Part shown: positions 3,499 through 12,425 of the stretch, in pieces
Numbering within the stretch: position 1 is the stretch's first letter
How the letters are laid out: every line of letters starts with the position of its first letter
NCBI GenBank assembly: GCA_014378705.1
Contig: JACMND010000076.1
Coordinates: 1 to 50,711, forward strand
Origin: Pedobacter sp.
GTDB taxonomy: Bacteria; Bacteroidota; Bacteroidia; Sphingobacteriales; Sphingobacteriaceae
Length of the DNA stretch: 50,711 nt
Direction of reading: 5' to 3'
Notes under the pieces: generated by a model
Database searches by the model: none
Seen by the model: only the letters and a program-made list of their open reading frames with translations
What the model was told of the DNA's origin: nothing
Position numbers and translations under genes: made by a program

Positions 3499-3516
3499 AT
3501 ACGCATTGTTGCGTAT
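3499..3516 (+). promoter_or_regulatory. Site A: ATACG-N8-CGTAT dyad, putative response-regulator operator
   Basis: The sequence is ATACGCATTGTTGCGTAT, and the outer bases extend the symmetry to AATACGCA...TGCGTATT. Exactly 22 bases separate it from TAGCTTTA (3539-3546), a one-mismatch -7 box ahead of the gene starting at 3563. The same dyad with the same 22-base spacing occurs at 7670-7687, 8578-8595 and 10656-10673. The position just upstream of the -7 region suits an activator. That the binder is the LuxR-type regulator at 7887-8531 is an inference from proximity. Confidence 0.75.
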
Positions 3517-3538
3517 TGTAGCTTTTTTAGCATCGCGG

Positions 3539-3546
3539 TAGCTTTA
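3539..3546 (+). promoter_or_regulatory. -7-like box downstream of site A
   Basis: TAGCTTTA matches TAnnTTTG except for the last base. It starts 22 bases after site A and ends 16 bases before the start codon at 3563. Confidence 0.55.
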
Positions 3547-3562
3547 AAGAAAAAGAAAACTC

Positions 3563-5389
3563 ATGAAGAAAAACTATTACCTGACCCTAATTCTCTTTTT
3601 CATTGCCTTCCAAATACATGCTCAACTTCCAGTTTTGGAAAAAAGTTTTGACATTTCAAGAAAGTCTAAAAACGGCTACTTGGGCGGCATAGAAACCGAT
3701 TTGACGAAGCAAACATTTGACATGATTTACGTTTTAAAATCGGGAAAGAAATCTGTAAAACGCGAGATTTATACGTTTGACAAGGATCTTAAATTACTTA
3801 ATACCATAAAAGATGAGCAGGATGTTGAGCAAATGAGAAAGAAGTATAAATGGTTTAACTTTAAGGGAGACAGCTACCTGTCTCACAGTTTAAGTGCATC
3901 TGCAAATCTTACCGGAAAATTGGTTTTCAGAAAAAAAGAAATTACCTGGAAATATTTATGGTTAACAGGAAGCTATAATAAAACCATAAAGCAACTGGAT
4001 AAAGTAAAGGCTTCATCTGAGAACAACGAAAAATACCTTTTCAGGGGAGGTTCATACGAAGTGGAATCTGATAGTACTGTTTTAGTGCTAGTAGGGAAGC
4101 AAGAAAAAAAGAACGATATGCTAGGTTCTATGATGCATTACGATATCTTAAGTTGTGATAATCAAATCAATATTAAACCTGTTTCAAGCCTAAATTTTCA
4201 GTACCCGAACGCACCGGTATATTCATCTCCGCTCGAAGATGATAACCCCGAGCTGGATAATGATGATTTCCCAAGAGACTGGATATTGGTTTTTGCACCT
4301 CAGGGAGGAACAGGAATGGGTAAATCCACTGATCCGAAGCCTACTAATTACACTTTTGTGCGCCTGAACCCGCAAGGTCAGCTTATTGAAAAATTTAATT
4401 TTGAATCGCCCTCAAATGGATGGAGAGTATTAGGTGCATACGAACGGGAAGGATCAGTGTTTCTGTATGGTTCGGCAACTACTAAAGATCCTGGGTCGAA
4501 GTACATCAATCAAATATATAAAACCGCAATGGTTGCAACTACCTCGTCAGACTCTGATGAAAAAGAGACATCAAATGCAACTAAGGGAGGCTTAGGTGCT
4601 TTAAAGGGTGGACTCAGTATTTTGAACGGAAGCATGGACTTCGGTGTTACTCAAGATAAAATTGACGATACTATGGACGAGTTAAAGTATACTAATTTTC
4701 AGATTGGTAAAATCAGCAACGGAAAGTTTGATTTTTTAAGTTCTCCATCCATTGATGATTTTGATTCAAAAAAAGCAAAACCTGCTGATCAAAAAAAATA
4801 TGTAGATTTTGATGGCAAACGTTTTGTAATAAATGGAATATCATTTTCCCGGTCGGGAGATTTGTTTATAAATGGTCAGGATTTTAAAAAAATAACAACG
4901 GGGAAGAATAAAGGCGAGCGGAGTTACAAAGGCGTTTACATGTTTCAATTCGACCCATCAGGAAATTTAAAAAAGAATTATGGAATAACGCTTGATCAAA
5001 AAAGTACATCCGGATTATTTAATAACGCACCCCTTACATCCGATATGTATCCGTCAAAAAGTACCATTCAGGAATCTGCTGATGGTAAAAATCTATATTG
5101 GCTGATGCGTATGGTTCGATCTATCCATATGGAAAGTCACACTACTTATGGTTTTAACTCAAATATGGTTACTACTACCTGGGAGCCATTGTTTAATATG
5201 GAGTACGGTTCTATCCGTGTTGCAGATGGACAATTATCGAATTTTAACATTTTAGGTGAAAGTGAAAAAAAGAATTTTTATCTCTTTAAAAAGACGGATA
5301 GCGCCCGAATGAGTTCCTATACTTTTATGTTTAGTGAGACCGAGAAAGGGGATAAAATATTAATTTCCCGACTCGACTTATCCAAATAA
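3563..5389 (+). CDS. Large secreted protein of unknown family
   Basis: I do not recognise a family. The protein has 608 residues with a clear signal peptide (MKKNYYLTLILFFIAFQIHAQ). The mature part is rich in short beta-strand and turn segments of the kind found in propellers, for example DWILVFAPQGG, GQLIEKFNFES and GSVFLYGSATT. A low-complexity, glycine-rich stretch (GGLGALKGGLSILNGSMDFG) lies near residues 347-366. There is no transmembrane segment after the signal and no lipobox, so it is periplasmic or surface exposed. The gene sits behind operator site A and ends at a strong terminator before the PD40-OmpA gene. It is therefore probably the main target of the neighbouring two-component system in this direction. 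Confidence 0.8.
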   Translation: MKKNYYLTLILFFIAFQIHAQLPVLEKSFDISRKSKNGYLGGIETDLTKQTFDMIYVLKSGKKSVKREIYTFDKDLKLLNTIKDEQDVEQMRKKYKWFNFKGDSYLSHSLSASANLTGKLVFRKKEITWKYLWLTGSYNKTIKQLDKVKASSENNEKYLFRGGSYEVESDSTVLVLVGKQEKKNDMLGSMMHYDILSCDNQINIKPVSSLNFQYPNAPVYSSPLEDDNPELDNDDFPRDWILVFAPQGGTGMGKSTDPKPTNYTFVRLNPQGQLIEKFNFESPSNGWRVLGAYEREGSVFLYGSATTKDPGSKYINQIYKTAMVATTSSDSDEKETSNATKGGLGALKGGLSILNGSMDFGVTQDKIDDTMDELKYTNFQIGKISNGKFDFLSSPSIDDFDSKKAKPADQKKYVDFDGKRFVINGISFSRSGDLFINGQDFKKITTGKNKGERSYKGVYMFQFDPSGNLKKNYGITLDQKSTSGLFNNAPLTSDMYPSKSTIQESADGKNLYWLMRMVRSIHMESHTTYGFNSNMVTTTWEPLFNMEYGSIRVADGQLSNFNILGESEKKNFYLFKKTDSARMSSYTFMFSETEKGDKILISRLDLSK

Positions 5390-5398
5390 TTCAAACAA

Positions 5399-5426
5399 TT
5401 AAACGGGGGCTTTTGCCCCCGTTTAA
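5399..5426 (+). terminator. Strong hairpin terminator
   Basis: A perfect 12-base inverted repeat, TTAAACGGGGGC / GCCCCCGTTTAA, with a TTTT loop follows ten bases after the stop of the 608-residue protein. The T-rich tail is short (GTTTAACTT). The perfect symmetry means it could also act on the opposite strand. The next gene starts 13 bases later, so readthrough would be needed for co-transcription. Confidence 0.8.
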
Positions 5427-5438
5427 CTTACATATAAA

Positions 5439-6965
5439 ATGATGAAATTAATTTTCGCTTTATTTTTAGGTTGGGTCCAACTATCATATTCACAAGATAT
5501 GTATGCACCGGTTAACATCGGTCCAAAAGTAAACTCTAAATTTGGAGAAATTTCTCCATATCTATCTGCCGATGGCCATGAACTCTATTTTTTACGTTCA
5601 ATGCCACGAAAAGGGTCTTCTGATAATGTACAAAGCTTATGGTACTCCCGTATGGATGAGAAAGGCGAATGGGGAGTAGCAAAATATATGGCTCCACCGT
5701 TTAATGTGGGCTTAAAAAACTCGTCGGTAGATGGAATTTCAACAGACAATAATGTTATTTTACTAAAAGGGTATTTTATCAATGGGTCACGGTCTGACAC
5801 ATTTGGTTATTCATTTATAAAACGGGAAAATAATACATGGAAAGTTCCGGAAGGAATAGAAATTGATAATCTAAATGATATGAGGCACGGTGAATATGTA
5901 GGTGCACAAATGACGCCAGACGGTAAAGCCATCCTGATATACTTTAGCGAAGCACAGGGCAGCAAAAACAGCGATTTATATATTTGTTTCAAAACTAGCG
6001 ATAAGCATTACTCAACTCCAAAATATTTAAAAGATTTAAATACACAGTATGATGAGTCCGGTACGTTTTTGGCATCTGACAATAGAACTTTGTACTTTTC
6101 GAGCGATAGAAGAGGCGGAATAGGTGACAACGATATTTATAAAACAACAAGAATGGATGATAAATGGGATAATTGGTCTGAACCAGTTAACATGGGCCCA
6201 ACAATCAATTCAGATAAATGGGATAATTATTTTACTGTCGACGCCCGCGGCGAATTTGCCTATATGGTAAGTTCAAAAGATGGTGGACAAGGTGGTAGTG
6301 ATATTGTTAAAATAAAACTTAAACAGGAATTAAAGCCTCAGCCAGTAATTTTGATCAGGGGACTGGTACTCGATAAGTCAACAAATAAACCGATCGAAGC
6401 AGGAATCAAGTATGACGAACTCAAATCTGGCAGGAACCAGGGGATAGCAATAAGTGATGCAGTAACCGGAGCCTACCAAATCTCACTAGCCTACGGACAA
6501 AGTTACAGCTTCAATGCTACAGCCGAAAATTACATTTCAATTTCGGATAATATAGATCTCTCAACAGTATTAGACTATAAGGAATTAACGAAAAATCTGT
6601 ACTTGGTGCCGATTGCTAAGGGGCAGGTGGCGAGAATAAATAATATTTTCTTTGAAACCGGCAAGTCAGATCTAAAACCTGAATCCTTTAATGAACTTAA
6701 TAGATTGGTAGATTTGCTTCAAAAAAGGGAAAAATTAGAGATCGAATTGGGCGGCCATACCGATAATGTGGGCTCTGATGAGATTAACGTTAATCTATCA
6801 GCACAACGGGCATTGTCAGTGCAAACTTATTTGCTTGCTAAAGGCATTTATGCTTTAAGGATTAAATCTGCAGGCTATGGAAAAACTAAACCTGAAACAA
6901 CCAATGATACAGAAGAAGGCAGGGCAATTAATCGTAGGGTGGAATTTACTATTTTAAATCTATAG
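5439..6965 (+). CDS. OmpA-family protein with PD40 (WD40-like) repeats
   Basis: Exported outer-membrane-associated protein of 508 residues. After a signal peptide (ending near SYSQD) come several PD40 beta-propeller blades with the typical pattern SADGHELYFLRS, TPDGKAILIYFS, ASDNRTLYFSSDR and GEFAYMVSS. A short carboxypeptidase-like beta domain follows (about 310-385). The C-terminus (about 395-508) is an OmpA domain with the peptidoglycan-binding signature HTDNVGSDEINVNLSAQRA and AINRRVEF. The family tethers outer-membrane or gliding/secretion-type structures to peptidoglycan in Bacteroidota; the specific role here is unknown. It starts 13 bases after a terminator, so it is either expressed by readthrough from site A or from a promoter I cannot see. 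Confidence 0.85.
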   Translation: MMKLIFALFLGWVQLSYSQDMYAPVNIGPKVNSKFGEISPYLSADGHELYFLRSMPRKGSSDNVQSLWYSRMDEKGEWGVAKYMAPPFNVGLKNSSVDGISTDNNVILLKGYFINGSRSDTFGYSFIKRENNTWKVPEGIEIDNLNDMRHGEYVGAQMTPDGKAILIYFSEAQGSKNSDLYICFKTSDKHYSTPKYLKDLNTQYDESGTFLASDNRTLYFSSDRRGGIGDNDIYKTTRMDDKWDNWSEPVNMGPTINSDKWDNYFTVDARGEFAYMVSSKDGGQGGSDIVKIKLKQELKPQPVILIRGLVLDKSTNKPIEAGIKYDELKSGRNQGIAISDAVTGAYQISLAYGQSYSFNATAENYISISDNIDLSTVLDYKELTKNLYLVPIAKGQVARINNIFFETGKSDLKPESFNELNRLVDLLQKREKLEIELGGHTDNVGSDEINVNLSAQRALSVQTYLLAKGIYALRIKSAGYGKTKPETTNDTEEGRAINRRVEFTILNL

Positions 6966-7037
6966 TAATATTAAAGCCTAAAAATCTAAAAAATTGTATT
7001 TTAATATTCAAATCAGAAAGCTATTGCAAATTATATT

Positions 7038-7601
7038 TTATCTGTGCATTTTGAACACACTTCTTAAAAAACCTTTTTCCTGTCCGTTAGTCATGTCCAC
7101 TAATCGTTCAAAGCGCTCAATCTTAAACAAACTCTTTGAAACCTCTTTAATATCGAAAATCACGGTAGGACTTGAAATGAATGTTCGGTCGGTTCCTCTG
7201 TTATGAATTTTAAAATATTTTACTTCTAAATCGCTACCATTATTAACATCGTAGGAATAAGCTGTTGTATCAGTAATGGTTATCCCATTTTTTAAATAAC
7301 TATGGTACATGTACCCTTGTGCAGCTCTTAGATCATCCCCGTGGCTGTCATCTGTTTTCATGAAGGTTATTTTCCCAACGGGCATAATTTGTTCTGATAT
7401 TTGATGTTTTGATACATCAAATGAACTATACTTGATCGAATCGACAGTCCACTCGCCTGCTATTTTTCCTTCAAACTTATCAGCAAATGATTTTGGTTCT
7501 AAATTTTTTAACTTTTCGCAACTTGATGTAATAAGTGATACGGTCGCAATACACCCGATTGCAAGTAATTTTAATTGGTTAGCTCTACGTTTTGTGTTCA
7601 T
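7038..7601 (-). CDS. Lipocalin-like lipoprotein of unknown function
   Basis: A 187-residue protein with a type II signal: charged start, hydrophobic core and lipobox LITSSC near residues 23-28, so it is expected to be lipid anchored. The mature part begins with a GKIAGEWTVDSIKY segment reminiscent of the GxW opening of lipocalin-like domains common in Bacteroidota lipoproteins, but the similarity is too weak to assign a ligand. The gene lies next to the two-component system and has operator site B at 7670-7687, oriented toward it with the same spacing as the other three sites. It is convergent with the OmpA gene. Confidence 0.8.
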   Translation of the reverse strand: MNTKRRANQLKLLAIGCIATVSLITSSCEKLKNLEPKSFADKFEGKIAGEWTVDSIKYSSFDVSKHQISEQIMPVGKITFMKTDDSHGDDLRAAQGYMYHSYLKNGITITDTTAYSYDVNNGSDLEVKYFKIHNRGTDRTFISSPTVIFDIKEVSKSLFKIERFERLVDMTNGQEKGFLRSVFKMHR

Positions 7602-7639
7602 GTCATTAATTTGTTTTTATTTGGGCTATTAATTAAAAT

Positions 7640-7647
7640 TAAAGTTA
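7640..7647 (-). promoter_or_regulatory. -7-like box downstream of site B
   Basis: On the minus strand this reads TAACTTTA, one mismatch from TAnnTTTG, exactly 22 bases downstream of site B and about 38 bases before the lipoprotein start at 7601. Confidence 0.55.
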
Positions 7648-7669
7648 GTTTTAATGAACTGAAGCCACC

Positions 7670-7687
7670 ATACGCATAATTTCGTAT
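7670..7687 (-). promoter_or_regulatory. Site B: ATACG-N8-CGTAT dyad, putative response-regulator operator
   Basis: On the minus strand this reads ATACGAAATTATGCGTAT. It differs by a single base from site C at 10656-10673, and the similarity extends into both flanks. The distance to the -7-like box at 7647-7640 is 22 bases. It lies upstream of the lipoprotein gene. Confidence 0.75.
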
Positions 7688-7886
7688 TTTTCAGATTTCT
7701 AAAATTCGGTTAAAGCAGTTTGATTGGTGATGGTGTTCAATGATTCCTGTTGAAAATTAGATATAGAGCATTTTAAATCAAAATTGCAAAACAGGGAATT
7801 CAAATATTTTGAGTGTCCTACACTTAGACTTTAAAGAGGGCAAAATTTTCATCAAATCCCACAGTATGCGAAATATAAATGAAGTT

Positions 7887-8531
7887 TTAAATTAATCGAT
7901 TATTGGAGGCTTTGCGCACCGCGTCCATTTTATTACCAACCTGAAGTTTTCGATAAATATTTTCGATGTGCTTTCTTACCGTTCCATAGCTAATGGAAAG
8001 GTTTGAAGCAATTTTTTCATAACTGAAACCATTTTTTAGATGCTCAAGTAGTTCAACTTCTCTTTTTGTCAGGCTAAAATTATCTGACGAAGCGGGTGTG
8101 TTAGCTAATGGATTTTTGATCAGATTCAAAACTTTCAATGCAATTCCTGGAGACATTGCCGCGCCACCGCTTAAGGTGTCGTATATGGCCTCATGTAATG
8201 TTTCAGCGGTCTCCTCTTTAAGCAGATACCCGGAAGCACCCGCCATTATTGCTTGAAAGATGTTCTCATCATCATCAAAAGTAGTAAGCATTAAAATTTT
8301 AATTTGTGGATAATTTAACTTAATCCTCCGGGCACATTCTATTCCACCCATACCAGGCATTTGGATATCCATCAATATTAGATCTACCTGATGCTTTTCA
8401 ATATTCCCAACTAATTCTTCCCCGTTAAATGCCTTGAGAACAATTTTATACTCGGGATAAAAACTGAGCTTATCAATACACACTTTGAGTGCAAGACTGT
8501 TATCTTCTGCAATGGCAATACGTATTTGCAT
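7887..8531 (-). CDS. LuxR/NarL-family response regulator
   Basis: DNA-binding response regulator of 214 residues. The receiver domain has the acidic pocket (Glu9, Asp10), phosphoacceptor Asp55 in LILMDIQMPG, the MLTT segment near 81-84 and conserved Lys105. A LuxR-type helix-turn-helix follows (about 148-210), with LTKREVELLEHLKNGFSYEKIA and the recognition-helix region SISYGTVRKHIENIYRKL. It is encoded 66 bases after the sensor kinase on the same strand. The gap carries operator site D and a -7-like box, so the regulator appears able to drive its own gene. NarL-type regulators bind as dimers to short inverted repeats, which fits the four dyads here. Confidence 0.93.
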   Translation of the reverse strand: MQIRIAIAEDNSLALKVCIDKLSFYPEYKIVLKAFNGEELVGNIEKHQVDLILMDIQMPGMGGIECARRIKLNYPQIKILMLTTFDDDENIFQAIMAGASGYLLKEETAETLHEAIYDTLSGGAAMSPGIALKVLNLIKNPLANTPASSDNFSLTKREVELLEHLKNGFSYEKIASNLSISYGTVRKHIENIYRKLQVGNKMDAVRKASNNRLI

Positions 8532-8547
8532 CTTCCCTTTGAAATAA

Positions 8548-8555
8548 CAAAATTC
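8548..8555 (-). promoter_or_regulatory. -7-like box downstream of site D (response regulator promoter)
   Basis: On the minus strand this reads GAATTTTG, one mismatch from TAnnTTTG, 22 bases downstream of site D. The implied leader is only about a dozen bases before the start codon at 8531. Confidence 0.5.
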
Positions 8556-8571
8556 ATCAATACTATTGATG
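8555..8571. repeat. Second palindrome in the response-regulator promoter
   Basis: CATCAAT-ACT-ATTGATG is a perfect 7-base inverted repeat with a 3-base centre. It lies in the spacer between site D and the -7-like box. It may be a second protein-binding site or a chance AT-rich palindrome. Confidence 0.4.
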
Positions 8572-8577
8572 TTATCA

Positions 8578-8595
8578 ATACGACATACTGCGTAT
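8578..8595 (-). promoter_or_regulatory. Site D: ATACG-N8-CGTAT dyad in front of the response regulator
   Basis: On the minus strand this reads ATACGCAGTATGTCGTAT. It sits directly after the kinase stop codon, and 22 bases separate it from the -7-like box at 8555-8548. It implies autoregulation of the response regulator, independent of readthrough from the kinase gene. Confidence 0.7.
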
Positions 8596-8597
8596 AA

Positions 8598-10538
8598 TTA
8601 TACAGGAAAGTAAACACTTACTTTGGTGCCATTACCTAGACTTGATTCAATAGCGCAATCACCTTCTAGAGCTACGGCACGAGCCTTGATATTTTTTAGC
8701 CCAAATCCCTCTTTAACTGCTTCCAGATCAAACCCAATTCCATTATCAGTTAAAGTCAGAACAACCTTTCCTTGTTCACAAAACACAGTTATATCCAATT
8801 TATTTGCCTGAGCATATTTGATTATATTATTAACCCCTTCCTGAATGATTCTGAATAAATTAGTGGCTGCTAATGCATTTAGAACACAACACCCGTTACT
8901 GGAAATACAAATAATAAGGTTCTGATTGGCTGCTTGAAAAGGCTTAACATATTCCCGGAGCTTAATAATAAACTCGTCCAGATCAACTTCTTGTTTGTTG
9001 ATTAACCAAACAGTTCTTCTAAGTTCAGTAATAGCTACCTGGGTTATTTTTTGTATCTCAACTAATACACCTGTATCTACCGAAGCTAATTTATTAAGAT
9101 GTTGTATGGACGTATTAATGAAGGTTAATTGTGATCCTATATTATCGTGAAGTTCTCTGGATATTCTTAATTTTTCTTCCTGAAGTTGAAACCGCGCTTC
9201 AGCACCAGCTAATTTAAGACTGAATTCATTTTTAGTCTTAAGCTTGCTATGTTTTATTCGCCAGGTTCTATAAATAATAAATGCAAAACTGCTTAATAAT
9301 AGAACAAAAAATGCCGAATAGATTAGCCAGCTGTTTTTTCTACTGAGTTCCATTGCATTAAGCATGAGCGTCTCCTTGCTCTTTGCAAGTTCCTTCTCTT
9401 TTCGCTCAGTTGCATACTTAGTTTGCAAATCCCTGATAGAAGTTAAATGCTGCCTGTCTGCGATAGAATCCTTAACTGCATTTAATTTCTCTAAATAAAT
9501 GAGAGCGGAATAGGATCTGTTCGTTTTTTTATGAAAGTCATATATGGATTGCAAGGCGTCTCGCTGCGTTTCTATATCTGGTTCAGCAACAGCCATATGA
9601 TACCCTTTGAGCAAAGACTTCTCGGCTTTATCAAATTGAGCAATGTTGGTATAAGCCTGCCCCAGATAGACATAAATGGCGTCGATGTGCTGATTATTCT
9701 GCGAGGATTTATAAGTTTGCAATGACTTTAAAAAGTTTGGTATAGATTCTTTACTTTGGCCGCTTTCAATCTGAGCTTTACCAATCTCTGCGAAGACAAT
9801 AGCCTTCATCGACATATCGCCTGTTAATTCAAAAAGTTTAGCTGCTTTTTGGTAATAAGTAATAGCACTCTTGTAGTTGCCGGAATTTCGCTCAATATAT
9901 CCAAGACTTCCCAGGCACTCGCTAATTCGCGGCAGATTTTTGAGTGATACAAATAACTTGTATGCTTGACGGTAATATTCCTTTGCCTTATCGAAATCCT
10001 GAGAAACAAGGTACATATTCCCTATTTGCCTGAGTGAAAGAGCCTGGCCAAGTGTGTCATTTGCGGATTCGGCAATTTCCAAGGATTCTCTATAATATTT
10101 TTGAGCGGTTATTAGCCTTGAATTTCTTCTTTCAATCAAGCCGAGCCCCAATAAAGATTCAACCTCAATAAACCGATCCTTACATTGCACGGCTAGCTTC
10201 CTGCCTTTCTCGTAATATTTTATACTCGAATCGGGAAGGTTCTGCGATAAGAATATACCTGCTTTTACATTATGATTTTTCGCCAGCCCTTTTTTGGATT
10301 TACTTTTGGTGTAGATTTGAAAGGCTGCTTTCTGATAGCTCCATGCTTTTACAGAATCAATGTCCTGGTAATTCTGGCTTATTTTATTGTATAAAAAAGC
10401 TTTTTCATCATCACTTTTAGCCTCGCTTAAACTTGCGAGCAGTTTAGATAACTTTTGGGGTATTGACTGACCTGAACCCGTGATCTGAAAGCCTGTTACT
10501 AAAACTAGAATAAGTAAATTTTTAAATTTTTTTTTCAC
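8598..10538 (-). CDS. TPR-containing sensor histidine kinase, NarL-partner (HisKA_3) type
   Basis: Membrane sensor kinase. Numbered from the GTG at 10538 (646 residues), it has a signal peptide (MKKKFKNLLILVLVTGF...), about six tetratricopeptide repeats in the periplasmic part (about 50-330), a coiled linker, one transmembrane helix (about 403-423), a HisKA_3 dimerisation domain with His464 in RISRELHDNIGSQLT, and an ATPase domain with N-box (FRIIQEGVNNIIKYA), DNGIGFD and GFGLKNIKARA. A TTG nine codons earlier (10565) is also open, but GTG gives the normal signal peptide. This TPR-HK plus LuxR-RR pair is a common Bacteroidota design; the TPR part probably senses a protein or peptide signal outside the cytoplasm. 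Confidence 0.9.
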   Translation of the reverse strand: MKKKFKNLLILVLVTGFQITGSGQSIPQKLSKLLASLSEAKSDDEKAFLYNKISQNYQDIDSVKAWSYQKAAFQIYTKSKSKKGLAKNHNVKAGIFLSQNLPDSSIKYYEKGRKLAVQCKDRFIEVESLLGLGLIERRNSRLITAQKYYRESLEIAESANDTLGQALSLRQIGNMYLVSQDFDKAKEYYRQAYKLFVSLKNLPRISECLGSLGYIERNSGNYKSAITYYQKAAKLFELTGDMSMKAIVFAEIGKAQIESGQSKESIPNFLKSLQTYKSSQNNQHIDAIYVYLGQAYTNIAQFDKAEKSLLKGYHMAVAEPDIETQRDALQSIYDFHKKTNRSYSALIYLEKLNAVKDSIADRQHLTSIRDLQTKYATERKEKELAKSKETLMLNAMELSRKNSWLIYSAFFVLLLSSFAFIIYRTWRIKHSKLKTKNEFSLKLAGAEARFQLQEEKLRISRELHDNIGSQLTFINTSIQHLNKLASVDTGVLVEIQKITQVAITELRRTVWLINKQEVDLDEFIIKLREYVKPFQAANQNLIICISSNGCCVLNALAATNLFRIIQEGVNNIIKYAQANKLDITVFCEQGKVVLTLTDNGIGFDLEAVKEGFGLKNIKARAVALEGDCAIESSLGNGTKVSVYFPV

Positions 10539-10655
10539 CTGCAAAAACGTTAAACGTATCGTCAAGTCGAAGATGCATTTTTTACCTTAATTGTTCAGTT
10601 GTTAAGAAAAATATTTAAAAAAAGCCTCATCTTAAACGATTTAACCTCATAAAAA

Positions 10656-10673
10656 ATACGAAATTCTGCGTAT
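10656..10673 (+). promoter_or_regulatory. Site C: ATACG-N8-CGTAT dyad, putative response-regulator operator
   Basis: The sequence is ATACGAAATTCTGCGTAT, differing from site B at one base, with matching flanks (AAAA before, GGT after). Spacing to the -7-like box TATTTTCG (10696-10703) is 22 bases. The site is between the divergent kinase and the 312-residue exported protein. In the kinase direction, no -7-like box lies at the 22-base distance. Confidence 0.75.
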
Positions 10674-10695
10674 GGTAGATGAATCACCTTCGTGG

Positions 10696-10703
10696 TATTT
10701 TCG
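10696..10703 (+). promoter_or_regulatory. -7-like box downstream of site C
   Basis: TATTTTCG has one mismatch to TAnnTTTG. It starts 22 bases after site C and ends 22 bases before the start codon at 10726. Confidence 0.55.
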
Positions 10704-11993: not shown

Positions 11994-12425
11994 CTATAAA
12001 GTCAGTTCCTTTTCCCTTAAAGCCAGGTCAGCAATACTGGTAGTTCCCATAATCTTAAGGGTGGCATCTCTTACTTTCTCCATCATCTCGCGAATGCTGC
12101 ATGTTCGTTCGTTACGGCACTCATCACAGCGCTGATAAAAGTTTATGCTTACACACGGAAGTAACGCTATAGGGCCTTCAAGGATGCGTATAACGGTACT
12201 TACCATAATTTCTGCAGGGGGTTGCAAGAGAAAGTATCCTCCCCCTGCCCCCATTTTACTTCCAAGGAGTTGCTTTCTTTTCATTTCAAGAAGGATACCT
12301 TCCAAAAATCTTTTGGGCAAATTTCCAACAGCTGCAATTTCAGAAATGAGCATGGGCCTGTTATCCTTCGCCCTGACCATTACAATCAATGCTCTAATAG
12401 CATACTTGGTTTTTTTTGTTAGCAA
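11994..12425 (-). CDS. Rrf2-family transcriptional regulator with Fe-S type cysteines
   Basis: A 143-residue winged-helix regulator of the IscR/NsrR/CymR/RsrR superfamily. The N-terminus (KKTKYAIRALIVMV) and the helix-turn-helix region (LISEIAAVGNLPKRFLEGILLEMKRKQLL, about 26-54) followed by the wing GAGGGYFL are typical. Cys91, Cys100, Cys103 and Cys109 form the cysteine cluster that binds an Fe-S centre in IscR or NsrR, although the spacing differs from both. It is encoded on the same strand as, and 259 bases after, the TonB receptor. Two dyads resembling Rrf2 operators lie upstream of that receptor, so it probably controls this locus. The effector (iron-sulfur status, sulfur supply or nitric oxide) cannot be told from sequence. 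Confidence 0.88.
   Translation of the reverse strand: MLTKKTKYAIRALIVMVRAKDNRPMLISEIAAVGNLPKRFLEGILLEMKRKQLLGSKMGAGGGYFLLQPPAEIMVSTVIRILEGPIALLPCVSINFYQRCDECRNERTCSIREMMEKVRDATLKIMGTTSIADLALREKELTL

Follow-up and report, generated by a model that had tools for sequence, protein, structure and literature searches.

A predicted compact regulon of a FimS-like kinase and a NarL/LuxR-type response regulator in Pedobacter, marked by dyads at a fixed distance from promoter boxes

Described systems and the Pedobacter locus

In class II activation by regulators of the NarL/FixJ/LuxR type, a GerE helix-turn-helix contacts a short dyad at about -42 in promoters read by the main sigma factor. In Bacteroidota the -7 box of sigma-A promoters reads TAnnTTTG, and the Flavobacterium psychrophilum map puts it at -12 to -5 (PMC9723704); the main text of that paper makes no mention of palindromes or LuxR. 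The closest described two-component system is FimS/FimR of Porphyromonas gingivalis. Its regulator FimR binds the promoter regions of mfa1 and pg2130, for which PMC1974823 mentions no palindrome, inverted repeat, footprint or binding site. The TPRs of FimS are periplasmic, flanked by two transmembrane (TM) helices, and altering them affects fimbriation (PMC11053733). A survey of the open-access literature, not an exhaustive one, found no described operator of a LuxR-type response regulator (RR) in Bacteroidota.

The window, that is, the whole analysed stretch of 50,711 nucleotides from Pedobacter sp. (assembly GCA_014378705.1, contig JACMND010000076.1), holds a kinase-RR pair amid genes for mostly exported proteins (Table 1). 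Both RR domains score above their cut-offs (Response_reg 88.3 bits against 30.2, GerE 59.6 against 23.5), and the receiver residues D10, D55, T83 and K105, assigned by eye, are kept. The same holds for the kinase domains HisKA_3 (35.0 bits against 24) and HATPase_c (46.6 against 26.4). The kinase TPRs lie at about residues 137-244 and a clear TM helix at 413-431; the N-terminal hydrophobic segment falls below the hydrophobicity threshold used, and the start codon is uncertain, the longest ORF opening with TTG. Residues 174-618, covering TPR region and core, match FimS (NCBIfam NF053520, E 3e-26) at 91.8 bits against a curated score of 600, which makes the kinase FimS-like at most; its best NCBIfam match is UhpB, core only, with a slightly higher 97.2 bits. 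Like FimS/FimR, the pair combines a kinase bearing a TPR region with a FimR-type RR that activates surface-protein genes, activation being a prediction here; unlike FimS/FimR, its targets are not fimbriae.

T608 belongs to no Pfam or NCBIfam family and has seven orthologues (69-71% identity) among 250 other family genomes; a structure prediction from the single sequence was unusable (mean pLDDT 34). The 508-aa PD40/OmpA gene follows after a gap of 49 bp and probably forms one operon with it, a PD40/OmpA-type gene following T608 in four of the seven orthologous loci as well. Its product contains Pfam OmpA and PD40 and matches PorE (NCBIfam NF052230, E 5e-50) at 170.3 bits, below the curated cut-off of 600. 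E312 has no assigned family, and a search of 150 other family genomes gave no relative. The initial annotation had proposed a secreted 608-residue protein, a lipoprotein, the RR and an exported 312-residue protein as targets. Among these, the export of the 312-residue protein is insecure: E312 shows no 19-residue stretch above the hydrophobicity threshold and no N-terminal Cys, and its export is likely at most.

Table 1. Genes, dyads and promoter boxes of the cluster, in window coordinates.
Feature	Position	Strand	Remark
Dyad A ATACGCATTGTTGCGTAT	3499..3516	+	22 bp 5' of its own box
-7 box of A TAGCTTTA, 5/6	3539..3546	+	predicted start 3551
T608, 608 aa, signal-peptide-like N-terminus	3563..5389	+	
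PD40/OmpA protein, 508 aa	5439..6965	+	
Lip187, 187 aa, lipobox-like N-terminus (SLITSSC)	7038..7601	-	lipobox by eye
-7 box of B TAACTTTA, 5/6	7640..7647	-	predicted start 7635
Dyad B ATACGAAATTATGCGTAT	7670..7687	-	
NarL/LuxR-type RR, receiver and GerE HTH	7887..8531	-	recognition helix ISYGTVRKH
-7 box of C GAATTTTG, 5/6	8548..8555	-	predicted start 8543
Dyad C ATACGCAGTATGTCGTAT	8578..8595	-	between kinase stop and RR gene
Sensor histidine kinase: TPR, TM, HisKA_3 with RELHDN, HATPase_c	8598..10565	-	
Dyad D ATACGAAATTCTGCGTAT	10656..10673	+	in the gap from which the kinase and 312-aa genes diverge
-7 box of D TATTTTCG, 5/6	10696..10703	+	predicted start 10708
E312, 312 aa	10726..11664	+	

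Four dyads and their distance to the promoter box

An exact pattern search finds ATACG-N8-CGTAT four times in the window, at the places where the initial annotation had put it, and none of 100 dinucleotide shuffles reaches four (shuffle mean 0.01). Its further claim, that each dyad stands 22 bases from a box one mismatch away from TAnnTTTG, is equally borne out: read in gene orientation, the gap is exactly 22 bases at A-D, and every box keeps five of the six informative bases. It had also described sites B and C as one base apart with common flanks, but this is the wrong pair, and the description fits B (7670) and D (10656). These two could be mutual copies; that the dyads are chance or duplicated sequence without function is nevertheless extremely improbable in view of the shuffles and of dyads standing before unrelated genes in 11 other genomes, at the same spacing.

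The own genome (G000; 3,308,660 bases in 209 contigs) contains six exact dyads, four of them inside the 7.2-kb cluster and two (C50, C149) inside ORFs, against one match of the reversed-pattern control. The chance of at least four of six dyads falling within 7.2 kb is about 3e-10, for a region itself chosen because of its dyads. When up to one mismatch is allowed, the dyad is no commoner in G000 than its control pattern (55 per strand, 63 in the control). When dyad and box are sought together with up to three mismatches, five matches have one mismatch and all fall at A-D, C matching in both orientations; three further matches have two mismatches, and the total of 45 lies under the control of 60. 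Site D read toward the kinase yields a composite with three mismatches only, which is noise level. The motif is therefore not scattered through G000 without its 22-base relation, since the composite stands out at A-D alone, and the regulon in the own genome, as far as the site defines it, consists of these four promoters.

The spacing was counted at 12 loci, where a search with the dyad as its sole criterion finds 32 sites, 13 facing RR genes and 19 other genes; orientation was taken from gene context, and five divergent gaps between kinase and exported gene were assigned to the exported gene. At least four of six box bases occur at 22 bp for 31 of the 32 dyads, an effective number below 32 because L091-L093 are near relatives; the runner-up among the spacings, 12 bp, reaches 11. 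With the orientation reversed, 5 dyads have that many box bases at 22 bp and 8 at 24 bp, the best spacing nearby. The one exception, L086:18437, has three of six box bases. In the subset tested first (22 dyads), the mean box score is 4.77 of 6 at 22 bp and does not exceed 2.8 at other spacings from 8 to 44; nine distal sites, picked with the composite pattern, were left out of the spacing counts. A blind scan of 86 loci for any 18-bp dyad with six paired ends returned 373 dyads, among which the ATACG group peaks at 22 bp (12/47) and all others show no peak (6/326 at 22 bp and as many as 9 at a different spacing), so the 22-bp spacing is not general to palindromes.

If the box is set at -12 to -5, as in PMC9723704, the predicted starts of Table 1 leave leaders of 12, 34, 12 and 18 nt for A, B, C and D. 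On this scale the dyad would reach from -52 to -35, over the -33 place. With 31 of 32 dyads at one distance and a predicted centre of -43.5, which we take to be the position of a class II activator, the arrangement agrees with that class. It resembles NarL/FixJ/LuxR class II systems in the pairing of a GerE HTH with a short dyad at a comparable position; it differs in having an 18-bp dyad with 7-bp half-sites and in the Bacteroidota -7 box, which replaces the -10/-35 pair. Compared with Bacteroidota sigma-A promoters, the -7 box is the same, but the dyad stands in for the -33 element.

Its location over the -33 place speaks for activation, with the RR as a predicted class II activator, though it is also compatible with repression. 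Repression by occupation of the -33 region would fit a dyad that abuts or covers the -33 place, where the adjoining bases are GG, TG or TT, but the -33 element itself is mostly absent, and a spacing fixed in nearly all dyads fits contact with polymerase and is not needed for simple blocking, which makes this explanation quite improbable. The dyads might also work in RNA, as attenuators or processing sites, given that each could form a stem of 5-7 bp and that dyad C directly follows the kinase stop codon. Dyads A, B and D, however, lie upstream of the box and hence outside the predicted transcript, and the distance between dyad and box is conserved; hairpins are accordingly regarded as very improbable, and the preferred reading remains that of DNA sites bound by an activator.

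Inheritance of the dyad with one response regulator clade

Relatives of the RR were sought in 251 family genomes, the own one included, and 45 genomes have one at E 1e-40 or better. The loci examined are 17 regions, which cover the 19 top-ranking RRs beyond the window (47-69% identity), RRs of 46% or less being left out. Exact dyads occur at L085-L090 (RR identity 64-69%) and also at L091, L092, L093, L098 and L099 (51-55%). No exact dyad was found anywhere in the six sister RR regions L094-L097, L100 and L101 (47-54%), three of which share their genome (G065, G103, G140) with a dyad-type RR locus. In a tree of 28 RR proteins, the 14 dyad-type RRs, the window's among them, form one clade with support 100/99; they come from 12 of the 251 genomes. 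The exact dyad stands just upstream of 13 of the 14 clade RR genes (or where the longest ORF begins), the fourteenth (L090) has the one-mismatch dyad ATAAGCATTTATGCGTAT, and the recognition helix reads GTVRKH in all 14. The comparison with related genomes that the initial annotation had proposed thus reveals a dyad that tracks one RR clade. Which genes stand behind the dyads varies from species to species, the dyad following the RR and no single target family. Because it is inherited together with the RR in relatives, the dyad is very probably the RR's own binding site.

At two loci, in G118 and G103 (L086, L089), the kinase-RR pair is duplicated in tandem, and each RR has its own dyad. Pelobium manganitolerans, also of the Sphingobacteriaceae (NZ_MBTA01000012.1, L066), carries the same three sites as contig 12 of G103. 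The Rrf2 gene at 11994 was considered as the dyad binder and rejected, no Rrf2 relative being found at the relatives' loci searched.

Counts of the bare dyad over the family are uninformative, 214 of 251 genomes having at least one, and the dyad with its box was used instead. With TTT required at the right place, the 12 carriers (window genome among them) contain 45 sites against 3 in the control, and the other 239 genomes 61 against 99, with at least one site in 49 of them and at least two in 10. Two or more sites are found in 12/12 carriers and 10/239 others (Fisher p 6e-15, phylogeny ignored), counts that are not independent because the carriers are related genomes, L091-L093 above all.

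Apart from RR genes, the dyads elsewhere precede genes for proteins of about 590, about 330 (lipoprotein-like), about 1700, 343 and 350 aa; the ~1700-aa target in L087 has a T9SS sorting tail, and at L086:15897 the nearest long ORF, encoding a beta-barrel protein, starts 250 bp off. Lip187 has one orthologue among the 150 other genomes searched, in G054; it lies at another genomic place, behind a dyad with a 6/6 box, a site that came from the composite search. Homology among the target families was considered and rejected: in a profile comparison of 12 groups (T608, ~590 aa, ~330 aa, 343 aa, 350 aa, 312 aa, ~610 aa, lipoproteins) the large ones show no overall homology. Only three pairs exceed probability 30, one being two small lipoproteins (145/149 aa), the other two matching over N-terminal stretches of 30 and 47 columns only.

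A subtype of the dyad, ATACGTA, also with the box at 22 bp, stands before a conserved operon for a 126-aa, a ~610-aa and an OmpA protein (L132, L134, L135, L139) in G040, G054, G065 and G103; the ~610-aa protein is a BamB-like propeller. The same subtype precedes genes for lipoprotein-like proteins of about 98 aa, 48% identical to each other, at L136:4392 and L138:4255 (G103, G118). G040 has no clade RR (best identity 31%), yet has dyad and box before its 126-aa/600-aa/OmpA operon. For this reason the distal ATACGTA-type sites are not counted as targets, and these ATACG-like sites probably belong to another regulator.

The same case bears on the possibility that the operators are real and bound mainly by another LuxR/NarL-type regulator, with the local RR as just one target. 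LuxR-type candidates are plentiful in genomes of the family (48 at first look in G000), and ATACC-type dyads with the same spacing (see below) must have other binders. Against this stand the presence of dyads at RR loci of one clade and their absence from the six sister loci, even within one genome, as well as the lack of outstanding composites beyond A-D in G000; binding chiefly by another regulator is therefore considered unlikely.

The reading preferred here, with a probability of roughly 0.86, is a compact two-component regulon of a FimS-like TPR kinase and its RR, in which the RR would bind the dyads and activate its own gene and adjacent genes, most of them for exported proteins. It builds on the observed sites with their spacing, on their being inherited along with one RR clade, and on the unrelatedness of the target families. 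The kinase, its TPR region probably periplasmic and a candidate for sensing there, would phosphorylate the adjacent RR, and an RR dimer would bind the 18-bp dyad, roughly ATACG(C/A)A-N4-T(G/T)CGTAT. As a class II activator of RNA polymerase with the main sigma factor, it would serve its own gene, T608 with the OmpA gene behind it, the lipoprotein gene Lip187 and E312. Because the RR promoter sits between kinase and RR, feedback would raise the RR and not the kinase. A role in the envelope may be supposed. The notion of an undescribed envelope-response system, put forward at the outset, is one of the softer parts, as the kinase resembles FimS.

Possibly exchangeable half-sites and a proposed wider promoter rule

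The seven other T608 orthologues all come from genomes that lack a clade RR. Each is preceded, at the same position, by ATACC-N8-GGTAT, in five cases exactly and in two with one mismatch. At a distance of 22 bp from the exact dyads (L029, L030, L031, L034, L035), the box keeps 6, 3, 6, 5 and 6 of its six bases, respectively. The one-mismatch dyads of L032 and L033 have 4/6, that of L032 preceding a 166-aa gene 5' of T608; at both loci an exact ATACC dyad with a 6/6 box heads the cluster holding a divergent TPR kinase-RR pair. This pair, which the T608 orthologues of L032 and L033 adjoin, is only 23-29% identical to that of the window, so that the partnership recurs there with a distant regulator. 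At 22 bp from the exact dyad of L030 stands CAAATTGC, nearer to TAnnTTGY than to TAnnTTTG; TAnnTTGY is motif SM5 among those described in PMC9723704.

Across the family, 117 of 251 genomes contain a total of 207 matches to the ATACC composite, compared with 10 for the control (sums by hand). With the gap left free, at least 150 matches were listed, from 101 genomes. Among these listed matches, 52 have a gap of 22 bp and 20 one of 21 bp, while no other gap length exceeds 6; by eye, about 2 of those at 22 bp and 9 of those at 21 bp are near-identical and probably coding sequences that recur between genomes. A LuxR-type protein is encoded within the stretch at 6 of 20 ATACC loci, which were chosen partly for clustered sites, and the recognition helix is xT(V/I)xTH in all eight RRs near ATACC sites. 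Four of the six sister RRs have STVRRH, the remaining two STIRKH and FTVKRH; the RKH residues alone do not settle specificity, because the sister RR of L100 has them too.

The dyad ATGGGC-N6-GCCCAT occurs at L101:9733 (-), and a looser form upstream of L100:13906, a possible third half-site. These ATGGGC-type dyads near sister RRs stand 22 bp before GAATTTTG or AATTTTTG. Both the ATACC and the ATGGGC cases were first noticed among the six non-ATACG dyads at 22 bp of the blind scan.

The ATACC dyads at T608 orthologues and their family-wide recurrence 21-22 bp before the box suggest one promoter rule with exchangeable half-sites across the family. It is tempting to go further and to propose a general class II module, composed of an 18-bp dyad, a gap of 21-22 bp and TAnnTTTG, that would be shared by several LuxR/NarL regulators with half-sites ATACG, ATACC and possibly ATGGGC. 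Genes would then switch regulator by symmetric single-base changes, and T608 would have moved from ATACC to ATACG here. We lean slightly towards this broader proposal.

A rigid rule relating dyad to box would let regulons be read from sequence and would tie the residues of the recognition helix to half-sites, giving a testable code. It would also assign many unnamed exported proteins of the family to signalling circuits, and T608 would represent a natural switch of regulator through one symmetric base change.
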